A stretch of 64,000 nucleotides of DNA from Terriglobia bacterium (GTDB lineage: Bacteria > Acidobacteriota > Terriglobia > Terriglobales > Acidobacteriaceae): NCBI GenBank assembly GCA_020073185.1, contig JAIQFT010000023.1, positions 1 to 64,000 on the forward strand. Reading direction: 5' to 3'. The notes beneath the pieces are model-generated. The model had not been told where the DNA came from. It searched no databases and saw nothing but the letters and a program-made list of their open reading frames with translations. The translations under genes were made by a program, and so were the position numbers. This document shows, piece after piece, positions 54,712-59,045 of the stretch; position 1 is the first letter of the stretch; the number at the start of each line of letters is the position of its first letter.

Positions 54712-56256
54712 TTATCGTCCCGCCATGTACCTCTCAATCTCCTCCGCCGTCTTCGGCAGTTTCTCGCTCAGGCTGACCAGCTTTCCGCCTCCATCCACCA
54801 GGAACGTGTCCTCGATGCGCACGCCGATCTTCTCTTCCGGAATGTAAATGCCGGGCTCGATGGTGAATACCATGCCCGGCCCGAGCGGCTTGCCCTCGCC
54901 GCCGGGATCGTGCACGTTCAGCCCGACCATGTGGCTGACGCCGTGGATGAAGTATTGTCCCAGCGGCTGTCCGTGCAGGTCCTTGCCGTGCGAGTCGATG
55001 TAGTCGTAGGCGGCCATGAACAGCGAATTCTCGTCGCGCCCGCTGAGCACGGACTTGCCCGACCGGAACGCCCGGATCGCCGCCTGCTGCGCGCCCAGCA
55101 CGATGTCGTAAAGCTCGCGCTGCCGCGGCGTGAACTCGCCGTTGGCGGGCACGGTGCGCGTGATGTCGGTGGCGTACATCGAGTACTCGCCGCCCACGTC
55201 CATCACGATCACGTCGCCGTCGTTGATCGGCCCGGAGTCTTCGTCGTAGTGCAGCACGGTGGAGTCAAAGCCCGAGCCGACAATCGGCCCGTACGCCGGA
55301 CGCTCGCAGCCGCGCCGCTCGTACTCGTACACCATGAGCGCTGCGATCTGGCGCTCGGACGCGCCCGGCTTGATCGCCTTCCAGGCCGCCAGGTGCGCCT
55401 CGACCGACGCGTCGGTAGCCTTGCGGATCAGCTCGATCTCGCCCGCGTCCTTCACCGCCCGCAGCGACGCGATCAGCGGGCGGGCGTCACGCGAATAGAC
55501 CGACAGGTTGCCGTGCTTCAGCCAGTCGAGGGCGAGCTTGGAATCCTTGCCTTCATTGACCAGCACCACGCCGCCCAGCGGGGAAACGACCTTCGCCAAC
55601 TCGTCGCGCAATGCGTCAATCGCCACGATGCGATCAAAGCCGGTTGCCGTCTTCGCCTCGGGATCGTCGGGGCCGAGCTTCGGTCCAGTCCAGCGCTCGG
55701 CGGCGCGATTGCGTTGCGGCAGCAGCAGGACCTCGGAGTACGCGCGCGGCTTTAACGTCGCTGGACGTCCGGGCGGCAACTGCGCGTTGGCGGCCTTCAA
55801 CGCTTCGGCGTCTAGTGCGGGCACGATCAGCACCGCCGCGCCGGGCTCGTTCACTCCGGTGAGATACCAGAAATCCTCGTCCTGGCGGAAGCCGGTGAGC
55901 ACCTCGGTGAGATCGCTCTCGGTGGTGGCAAAGACGAGGATCGGCGCGCCATTGGCTTTCTTGGCCAGCGCCTCGCGGCGGGCGCGGTAAGTCTGGTTGG
56001 GCTGCCGCTCGAGGGCAAAGGCGGCGGTGACGATGAGGAGCAGCAGCAAAACAACGGCGATGGTTAATTTTGTCGTTACGGCGTTCCGCCCCGCCGAAAA
56101 CGCTTCTCGTGCCGTCCCTACGGGACTCCGGAGTTTTTTCACGCCGCTATCCCGGCACTCACGTGCCGGGCTATCCTGTGCTGCCCCTGCGGGGCTGGCT
56201 TGCTCCCAGTCGCTAACAGGCCAACCGTTTGAACGAAGAGGATCGGCTCGTTTCAT
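54712..56256 (-). CDS. M24-family Xaa-Pro aminopeptidase with a repeat-derived N-terminus
   Basis: A 514-codon frame. Residues about 115-505 are a normal M24B peptidase with creatinase domain and metal ligands in 'DVIVMDVGGEYSMYATDITRT', 'FIHGVSHMVGLNVHDPGG' and 'MVFTIEPGIYIPEEKIGVRIEDTFLV'. A hydrophobic stretch near 64-82 ('LTIAVVLLLLLIVTAAFA') looks like a signal anchor. The first 60 residues derive from a 90-base palindromic repeat and, further upstream, the end of an IS200-type fragment, so they are probably not the natural N-terminus. No internal ATG precedes the hydrophobic stretch. A TATAAT box at 56265-56270 lies eight bases before the ATG, which would give a leaderless transcript. 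Confidence 0.8.
   Translation of the reverse strand: MKRADPLRSNGWPVSDWEQASPAGAAQDSPARECRDSGVKKLRSPVGTAREAFSAGRNAVTTKLTIAVVLLLLLIVTAAFALERQPNQTYRARREALAKKANGAPILVFATTESDLTEVLTGFRQDEDFWYLTGVNEPGAAVLIVPALDAEALKAANAQLPPGRPATLKPRAYSEVLLLPQRNRAAERWTGPKLGPDDPEAKTATGFDRIVAIDALRDELAKVVSPLGGVVLVNEGKDSKLALDWLKHGNLSVYSRDARPLIASLRAVKDAGEIELIRKATDASVEAHLAAWKAIKPGASERQIAALMVYEYERRGCERPAYGPIVGSGFDSTVLHYDEDSGPINDGDVIVMDVGGEYSMYATDITRTVPANGEFTPRQRELYDIVLGAQQAAIRAFRSGKSVLSGRDENSLFMAAYDYIDSHGKDLHGQPLGQYFIHGVSHMVGLNVHDPGGEGKPLGPGMVFTIEPGIYIPEEKIGVRIEDTFLVDGGGKLVSLSEKLPKTAEEIERYMAGR
56108..56197. repeat. 90-base triple-hairpin repeat, family B, copy 1
   Basis: Contains three short palindromes: GTCCCTACGGGAC, CCCGGCAC-TCAC-GTGCCGGG and GCCCCTGCGGGGC. 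Nearly identical to a 90-base copy at 58956-59045. It lies inside the 5' part of the M24 peptidase frame. Confidence 0.9.
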
Positions 56257-56446
56257 AAGCGGCGATTATACGTGTTGCGAGACATCGCCCAGCGCGTGGC
56301 GTATCTAAATCGGTCTTCCTCCGGAACACCTCTCCTAAATACTTCCGCAGCTCCCCATACAACGCTTTTCGCCGACCCTTGGGGATAAACACCACGTGGT
56401 ATTTGCACTCCCATTTCGAGTGGCTTAAGCTCTCATACTCGTCCAT
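56213..56446 (-). pseudogene. IS200/IS605-type TnpA fragment
   Basis: The frame starts MDEYESLSHSKWECKYHVVF and continues 'IPKGRRKALYGELRKYLGEVF', the N-terminal part of a Y1 (HUH) transposase of the IS200 type. After about residue 43 (near 56317) the sequence no longer resembles TnpA, and the HUH histidines and catalytic tyrosine are absent. The rest of the element is lost and its end is joined to the 5' part of the M24 peptidase gene. Inactive remnant. Confidence 0.8.
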
Positions 56447-56510
56447 CCAGTTTCTCCTTTGCGTGTGCTTCGCGGCTCACGCCTGGAGTTTCTTGGATGG
56501 ACTCCAGTAT

Positions 56511-56553
56511 CTGTCAAACTGCTCGTGCCTCCCCGGCAGAGCCGGGGGAACTC
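56511..56553. repeat. Hairpin repeat, family C, copy 1 (upstream of IS200 fragment)
   Basis: CTGTCAAACT, a short variable stretch, then the hairpin CCCCGGC-AGA-GCCGGGG and GAACTCC. About 80 bases upstream of the TnpA start, where IS200/IS605 elements keep their left-end hairpin. A reverse-oriented copy lies at 57424. Confidence 0.75.
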
Positions 56554-56705
56554 CCATTTCATTAGTGTTTGGTCGCAGACTTGAGCGATGCTCGCGTCTC
56601 GCCCTGTTGTCCTCTTGTGGTGCTCAAGAGCCATTTTGACGAAGGTAGGGTCCTCGCAATTTGGCAAGTGGTACGTGATTAAGTCCGTTATGGGGGCTGG
56701 CCCTC

Positions 56706-56935
56706 GATAAGAGCGAAGGCGTTGTCAAGGACATAATTCCCCTGGCGGTGCGTCAGCACCGCTCGTTTCGCCAGAGCGGTTGAGGACCAAGACTCTGGAA
56801 ATCTCACGCTGAATCACTCTCGGTGGAAGATCGTTCCACCAACCATCGATTCGACCTAAACCGCGGCCATGATTCTTCTATGCGAACATCCCGCCCCGGT
56901 GCGGGATGCGAGAGCGCCCAATCAACACCTGCGGT
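56706..56935 (-). ncRNA. Candidate bridge/seekRNA region of the IS110/IS1111 element
   Basis: The 230 bases downstream of the recombinase stop hold three good hairpins: 56741-56774 (CTGGCG... with an inner CGGTGC/GCACCG stem), 56822-56840 (GGTGGAA/TTCCACC) and about 56888-56908 (ATCCCGC/GCGGGAT). IS1111-type elements encode their targeting RNA in this position, in IS110 proper it is on the other side. No transcript evidence. Confidence 0.35.
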
Positions 56936-58052
56936 CTAGCTTGCGCCGACCAGGGCCAGCCCCGAGCTGCTCTCGATGCGAACGATCTCCGGATACCCCG
57001 TCTGCGTGCGCAGCATCCAGTAGAGTCGTACGGCTAATTTGCGCGCCGCTGCCACCTTGGCCACGCCTTTCGGTTTTTGGTGGCAGCGATGTAAGTACTG
57101 TTTCCTCATCCCTGGGTCCAGGCGCACTGCGACCTGTGCGGCTTCCACCAGTAAGGAGCGCACCATCCGGTTGCCCTGCTTGGTGATCGCGCCCAGCTTC
57201 TGCCGTCCACCCGAGCTTTCCTCGCGCGGAATCAAACCCAAGTAGCTGGCCACCTGCTTGCCGCGTGCAAAGCGGTTCGCATCGCCGATGGTGAGTACGT
57301 ATGCCAGCGCGGTGTTCGGCCCCACCCCGGGTTGCGTCATCAGCAGCTTCGCTTGCGGATGCTGATCGGCGGCTTGCTGCACGGCTCCGTCCAACTTCCC
57401 GATCTGCTGGTCTAATGCAACTAGGAGTTCCCCCGGCTCTGCCGGGGAGGCTCCCAAAGTTTGACAGTTCCGGGAGTATGCCGTCGCATTGTTTGCGCGT
57501 GCGATTGAGCAGCGTGTGCGTGGCGGTTTTGCAAGCGCACAGCTTTCACAGCTCACGCAGCATCTGCTGCCCGATTTGGCTCCACAGCTTGCGCTTGCGC
57601 TGCATTCCCTTATTCAAGGAAAGGTGTTGCAGTTCGTTTTTCACGCGGCTCCGGATCATCACGAGTTTGTGCCGGTGCAGCACCAGTTGCCGCAGGTCGC
57701 GCTGCTCGCGGTCCGGCGTCCACAGGCGCGGGAAACGGCCTTCCACCACGAGCTTCAGAATGTGCGCCGCATCCCGCTTGTCGGTCTTCTGCTTGCGCAC
57801 GTAGCTAGCCCGGATCTCGGCCGCGTCCCCGATCCAGATCTCGTGCCCCAGGTCCTGCACCAGTTCGATGAACCACTGGCTGTTGCCCGTGGCCTCCATG
57901 CCGATCAGCGCCGGTAGCCCCGGGTGTTGGTAGAACTGGTTGCCATCGCCCGAGGCGTGCACCAGTTTCTGCTCGCCCGTTTCCCCTGTTTCTGTATCCA
58001 CCCACGCAATCTGTTGCCAGCTAGGATGAAAATCACATCCTATAATCATCAT
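56936..58052 (-). pseudogene. IS110-family DEDD recombinase, split
   Basis: The N-terminal half (58052 to about 57546) starts MMIIGCDFHPSWQQIAWVDT with AAGGAG seven bases before the ATG and contains the RuvC-like DEDD part ('KTDKRDAAHILKLVVEGRFPRLWTPDREQRDLRQLV'). The C-terminal half (about 57430-56936) is a Transposase_20 domain ('LDQQIGKLD', 'LMTQPGVGPNTALAYVLTIGDANRFARGKQVASYLGLIPREES', 'RQKLGAITKQGNRMVRSLLVEAA') in another frame. A family-C hairpin (57424-57467) and stop codons lie between. The catalytic serine region 'QGNRMVRSLLVEAA' is intact in the C-terminal half. Combined length is about 340 residues, normal for the family. Confidence 0.85.
57424..57467. repeat. Hairpin repeat, family C, copy 2 (inside IS110 gene)
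   Basis: Reverse complement reads CTGTCAAACTTTGGGAGCCT then CCCCGGCAGAGCCGGGG and GAACTCC, matching the copy at 56511. The copy sits precisely at the break of the IS110 recombinase gene. Confidence 0.8.
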
Positions 58053-58166
58053 GCGAAGGCTCCTTCCCTTGCAGAGTCTCTGGTCCTCAACCGTAGACTA
58101 CCGGTTTTGGATCGAGCCTTCGCTCTTATCCAATCAACCCTTTCCTCATAGCGATTCTCGAGGTTG

Positions 58167-58208
58167 CCCCACCCTTGTCGCTCCCGGTTTTGGAGCGACA
58201 GGGTGGGG
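58167..58208. repeat. Palindromic repeat, family A, copy 4
   Basis: Arms CCCCACCCTTGTCGCTCC and GGAGCGACAGGGTGGGG with a loop of about seven bases. The best-paired copy of the family, just outside the IS110-type element. Confidence 0.9.
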
Positions 58209-58955: not shown

Positions 58956-59045
58956 CGTGCCGTCCCTGCGGGACTCCGTGTATTTCAAAGGCAGCTTTCC
59001 CGGCACTTACGTGCCGGGCTAGGTTCTGTCGCCCCTGCGGGGCTG
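58956..59045. repeat. 90-base triple-hairpin repeat, family B, copy 2
   Basis: Same three palindromes as copy 1 at 56108 in the same order and spacing, with a few substitutions (TGCGGGAC for TACGGGAC; TTACGTGCC for TCACGTGCC). Intergenic here, between the nucleotidyltransferase pseudogene and the small exported protein. Confidence 0.9.

Follow-up and report, generated by a model that had tools for sequence, protein, structure and literature searches.

RNA-guided recombinases of the IS1111/IS110 type are under development for DNA insertion, and their guide, named seekRNA or bridge RNA, is an already known class of system. The IS1111 RNAs are described in the available text of PMC11187229, which deals with ISEc11, ISPa11 and ISKpn4, as mapping downstream of tnp, whereas the bridge RNA of IS621, a member of the IS110 group, is located upstream of the recombinase (PMC11208160).

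The DNA analysed here (the window) is the 64,000-nucleotide stretch of Terriglobia bacterium contig JAIQFT010000023.1 introduced above, in which an earlier note had proposed the region 56706-56935 to be the flank of an IS110/IS1111 element with a candidate targeting RNA. According to our comparison with related sequences, this flank very probably encodes the 3′ part of the seekRNA (bridge RNA) of an acidobacterial IS1111-type element, a reading to which we give a probability of about 0.93.

The element and its recombinase

The element lies on the minus strand and its parts, listed from left to right along that strand, are:
56704..58136, minus strand: IS1111-type element of 1433 bp, delimited by the pair of subterminal inverted repeats (sTIRs) and by empty sites in the same genome
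58130-58136, minus strand: 7-bp left extension TGATTGG, preceding the left sTIR
58116..58129, minus strand: left sTIR ATAAGAGCGAAGGC, 14 bp
57546..58052, minus strand: N-terminal half of the recombinase with the DEDD_Tnp_IS110 domain, frame stopping at residue 169
57412..57477, minus strand: REP-like repeat inserted in the recombinase gene, found about nine more times in the genome, once at 56501-56566
56936..57556, minus strand: C-terminal half of the recombinase with the Transposase_20 domain, stop side at 56936
56707..56720, minus strand: right sTIR GCCTTCGCTCTTAT, 14 bp, matching ATAAGAGCGAAGGC
56704-56706, minus strand: 3-bp right extension CGA, after the right sTIR

Thus, the left end (58136) consists of TGATTGG and the sTIR and the right end (56704) of the sTIR and CGA, and these boundaries are borne out by the empty sites described below. 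The non-coding DNA amounts to 84 bp upstream of the recombinase gene versus 232 bp downstream. The features characteristic of the IS1111 group are all found, namely sTIRs with 7-bp and 3-bp extensions, a longer downstream non-coding region and a specific target without duplication, so the assignment made in the earlier note stands, the flank being the 3′ non-coding region of this element. Two Acido-Lenti-1 RNAs (RF01687) are located on either side of the element, at 56151-56196 and 58999-59044 on the plus strand of the window, and many more repeats of this kind are dispersed over the genome. Solitary right ends were seen at five loci in several relatives (L036, L096, L099, L100 and L108), with the target flank present and the full non-coding region and the recombinase absent.

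The two recombinase ORFs (58052-57546 and 57556-56936) do not share a reading frame, and the first 40 or so codons of the latter have no homology to intact relatives; the homologous halves are separated by a diverged stretch with the REP-like repeat, which takes the place of the central part of the gene and is longer than it. The 66-bp REP-like repeats at 56501-56566 and 57412-57477 adjoin a degenerate IS200-like (Y1_Tnp) fragment at 56256-56444, an arrangement resembling REP-associated transposase systems. An intact relative, L041, encodes a single 346-aa protein with the motif GLIPREESSG which is recognised as an IS110 family RNA-guided transposase. The marks of an IS1111-group recombinase (PF01548 and PF02371, GL-P----S(T)G, 330–350 aa) are present, with the window copy having both domains in broken frames. 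Matches to the TIGR-Tas RNA-guided endonuclease family were weak and below the family cut-off (E 4.7e-7 for the L041 recombinase and 1.1e-7 for window positions 56939-57556).

The window recombinase is a pseudogene and the copy does not supply its own enzyme, so it could move only by means of an enzyme provided in trans by an intact relative. It is rather likely that the family has a genuine RNA system but that this particular copy is a dead relic, with an RNA that currently plays no role: besides the broken frame and the REP-like insert, the only other copy with the guide RNA in the genome lacks most of the recombinase, and one of the two target guides described below (guide B) matches its flank less well. 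Against this, the sequences of guide T, the helices, the donor guide and both ends are undamaged, and movement in trans would still be feasible. The RNA and ends of the copy look intact, then, and it may at most be mobilised in trans. A relic status is compatible with the flank encoding part of a seekRNA and bears on activity only.

A conserved RNA at the recombinase end and in the downstream flank

The minus (transcribed) strand of the 230-nt flank folds with a z-score of −2.6, 2 of 200 shuffles being at least as good, and the plus strand does not fold better than its shuffles (z −1.3, 23/200). No family known to Rfam was detected in the flank with either gathering or relaxed thresholds. Many relatives were gathered in Acidobacteria by DNA and protein searches and used for two alignments: A1 with 32 core RNA sequences, the window copy among them, and A4 with 20 full flanks. 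The conserved parts in the window are:
56842..56985, minus strand: guide RNA core (R1), covariance-model match with E 4.9e-33, the window copy being itself part of the 32-sequence model
56969..56975, minus strand: outer helix P1, 5′ strand CGAGAGC, in the recombinase ORF, covarying with 56909-56915
56933..56951, minus strand: inner hairpin P2 (GGTC...GACC), holding the recombinase stop codon, 3 of its 4 pairs showing compensatory changes
56909..56915, minus strand: outer helix P1, 3′ strand GCTCTCG, covarying with the 5′ strand
56887..56908, minus strand: hairpin P3, 92.9% paired, with 4 of its 8 pairs showing compensatory changes
56822..56840, minus strand: hairpin P6, 88.8% paired, with 3 of its 7 pairs showing compensatory changes
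56745..56762, minus strand: hairpin P7 near the right end, 84.2% paired, with 2 of its 7 pairs showing compensatory changes

Alignment A1 supports five helices, with 95.2% of cells paired compared to 87.7% after shuffling and changes on both sides in 15 of 25 pairs; none of 500 shuffles equalled the values for cells paired, double changes and the covariation score, and sliding the partner by one column as a control reduced pairing to 33–42%. Eight helices are supported by A4, where helices 4, 7 and 8 have 93, 89 and 84% of cells paired and compensatory changes in each. All three hairpins that the earlier note had placed between the recombinase stop and the terminal repeat (P3, P6 and P7) are among the eight, with their coordinates and the anatomy holding, and the covariation check fixed beforehand came out in favour of a folded RNA with 20 to 32 homologues. 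The conserved RNA has its start at 56975, within the recombinase ORF and some 40 nt before the stop, and continues through the non-coding region. In L027, L032, L041, L044 and L050, hairpin P3 is lengthened by an extra arm of about 70–85 nt.

The covariance model built from A1 has matches in 122 of 398 genomes of one acidobacterial family and in 10 genomes of a phylum sample of 297, only two of which are outside the family. One 6.4-Mb chromosome (G189, contig C1, loci L160-L167) contains ten or more copies of the element; those read have identical guides, and the right flank is GGGGCACCC or a one-base variant of it in seven of eight.

It might be argued that the hairpins are structure alone, i.e. 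a terminator, an mRNA stabiliser or an end-recognition hairpin in the DNA, and do not act as guides, given that stable hairpins 3′ of genes are common and that the minus-strand fold surpasses shuffles just moderately. This is very improbable and already contradicted, since it leaves unexplained why the loop sequences covary with the flanking target DNA and the element ends.

Target guides

A target loop (56909-56975) spans the recombinase stop and is enclosed by P1 (CGAGAGC/GCTCTCG) and P2 (GGTC/GACC). In this loop, the 5′ strand (guide T) reads as the reverse complement of the right flank, and the 3′ strand (guide B) has the sequence of the left flank and continues into the left terminus:
56952..56963, minus strand: guide T GGGGCTGGCCCT, complementary to the right target flank, in the recombinase ORF
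56918..56932, minus strand: guide B GCAGGTGT followed by TGATTGG (identical to the left terminus)
58137..58174, minus strand: left target flank ...GGGTGGGGCAACCTC...GGAAAGGGT, also preceding GGGCCAGCCCC at seven genomic sites that lack the element
56692..56703, minus strand: right target flank GGGCCAGCCCCC, complementary to guide T and found in empty sites

In the window, the portion GGGGCTGGCCC of guide T (56953-56963) complements the flank GGGCCAGCCCC, and guide B matches the left flank at three of five positions. Over 37 distinct guide pairs, guide T has Watson-Crick complementarity to the right flank at 6.95 of 9 positions (shuffled mean 4.01, maximum 5.30) and guide B agrees with the left flank at 3.59 of 5 positions (shuffled mean 1.69, maximum 2.46), with 0 of 20000 shuffles reaching the observed value in either case; matching is maximal at offset 0. 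The guide T scores are bimodal, with 27 pairs at 7–9 of 9 and ten at no more than 4 of 9 in the set register, some of the latter being one-base shifts and some possibly reflecting wrong ends. Among distant matches, automatic end finding failed in more than half, and these were left out.

Such agreement could in principle come from shared repeats or from common descent of flank and element instead of targeting, as the target GGGGCACCC is common to many elements and guides are inherited among relatives. That explanation appears highly unlikely: matching guides are also found in elements with the unrelated targets CAAGATGAC, TGGCGATTT, CGAATACAT, CGCCTTACC and TGGGGCACC (for example GTCATCTTG with right flank CAAGATGAC, AAATCGCCA with TGGCGATTT and GGTGCCCCA with TGGGGCACC), the signal persists when shuffles are restricted to end subfamilies (0/20000), and both target halves are present in empty sites without the element.

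The 11-mer GGGCCAGCCCC occurs 14 times in the genome of the window, and seven of these sites are in the repeat GGGTGGGGCAACCTC-N-AAAGGGT-GGGCCAGCCCCC or near variants of it, which represents the left flank joined straight to the right flank; four of the seven empty sites match the strict repeat pattern. Likewise, Edaphobacter aggregans has sites AAAGGC|CGAATACATT (or CGGATACATT) without the element, and the relative L062 has an element between the same halves. The empty sites in both genomes thus indicate that insertion is site-specific, proceeds without duplication and is directed into a multicopy repeat. The idea that the insertion point always lies in a perfect palindrome was rejected, as pairs across the junction were not enriched on folding of the joined flanks, even though the folding energies of the joined flanks were lower than those with swapped flanks (0/200). 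Repeat targeting is claimed here; palindrome recognition is not.

Donor guide and candidate circle-junction promoter

Two further features are related to the ends of the element:
56839..56851, minus strand: donor guide AATCGATGGTTGG in the joining segment, resembling the joined ends TATCGA|TGATTGG and tracking right-end variants
56723..56728, minus strand: TTGACA, candidate circle-junction promoter read from the junction, 17 nt before GATGAT across the joined ends

The donor guide is situated between hairpins P4 and P6. The right ends CGA, TGA, AGA, ACA and GAGA go with ATCGA, ATTGA, ATAGA, ATACA and AGAGA, respectively, in most members, L061 being among the exceptions. The total guide-end match was 480, compared to maxima of 465 in 300 between-element swaps and 385 in 100 letter shuffles. 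One donor segment was found in the RNA and no second donor strand was identified; AATCAT was considered for this role and dropped, as it forms a helix with TGATTC. TTGACA is strongly conserved in A4, and the arrangement TTGACA-17 nt-GATGAT would fit the junction promoter described for ISEc11.

The comparison of loops with ends and flanks suggested by the earlier note therefore revealed right-flank, left-flank and donor guides that each covary with their own DNA, which strengthens the proposal of a targeting RNA while moving its start out of the proposed interval and into the ORF (56975). The expectation that loops hold donor and target recognition sequences was right as to the sequences and wrong as to their place, the target guides being strands of an internal loop over the stop codon and the donor guide a joining segment, not hairpin tips. 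Guide T is outside the interval, in the recombinase ORF.

By analogy with published work on IS1111/IS110 elements, the RNA would be formed from the transcript of the element and would bind the recombinase. The ends of the element would join in a circle, creating the promoter across the junction, and the RNA would pair with both the circle and the target, leading to strand exchange and, at this locus, to insertion between AAAGGGT and GGGCCAGCC.

Comparison with described IS1111 and IS110 elements

Where the acidobacterial copies are intact, the segment matching the right flank usually lies 26 to 17 nt upstream of the stop codon's end. The stop shifts between residues 339 and 359 with the RNA register unchanged, and in L032 it falls inside the guide. 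The proteobacterial comparison comprised four known elements, since five of nine gave no guide with automatic ends and were left out; in IS5075, IS4321 and the two further elements the right-flank match starts 96, 96, 96 and 75 nt past the stop, respectively. With moderate confidence, the overlap of the guide with the last recombinase codons in the acidobacterial branch may be regarded as an unusual placement relative to these four elements and to the available text of PMC11187229. It is fairly likely that in this IS1111 branch, with the target loop lying over the recombinase end, a single stretch of DNA acts at once as coding sequence, stop codon and programmable guide, that retargeting rewrites the C-terminal tail of the protein and that a translating ribosome would need to clear this portion of the RNA before it can fold and bind. 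The overlap poses a testable question about translation and guide-RNA formation on one transcript, and the branch adds dozens of naturally reprogrammed guides with their targets, i.e. a table from which the guide code could be learned.

As in described seekRNAs and bridge RNAs, there is a conserved folded RNA with two target-strand segments, the top-strand complement coming first, and a segment corresponding to the joined ends. An RNA situated downstream of the recombinase gene, which is the placement given for seekRNAs in the available source text, is not what is seen in intact acidobacterial copies, where the target loop starts in the ORF; we treat this as a variant position and not as a breach of a defining requirement.

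The closest likeness in organisation is to ISEc11, ISPa11 and ISKpn4 of the IS1111 group, which, as far as the available text of PMC11187229 describes them, share the sTIRs with 7-bp left and 3-bp right extensions, the long downstream non-coding region, the pair of short matches to the target, in which the complement of the top strand lies 5′ of the match to the bottom strand, and the absence of duplication. They differ in that their RNAs are placed downstream of tnp in that text, whereas the acidobacterial 5′ target match and one strand of the outer helix are inside the recombinase ORF. IS5075 and IS4321, IS1111-group elements that target the ends of the Tn21 family, also have sTIRs with 7/3 extensions, and the same method revealed in them a 9-nt complement of the right flank, AAAACGGAA, but this segment begins 96 nt after the stop and not, as in most acidobacterial copies, before the end of the stop codon. 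With the IS621 bridge RNA (PMC11208160) the acidobacterial RNA has in common two guide strands around an inner hairpin, a separate donor-reading segment and repetitive palindrome targets; in addition to its upstream position, the IS621 RNA differs by the opposite order of its guides, and the element has short subterminal repeats only.
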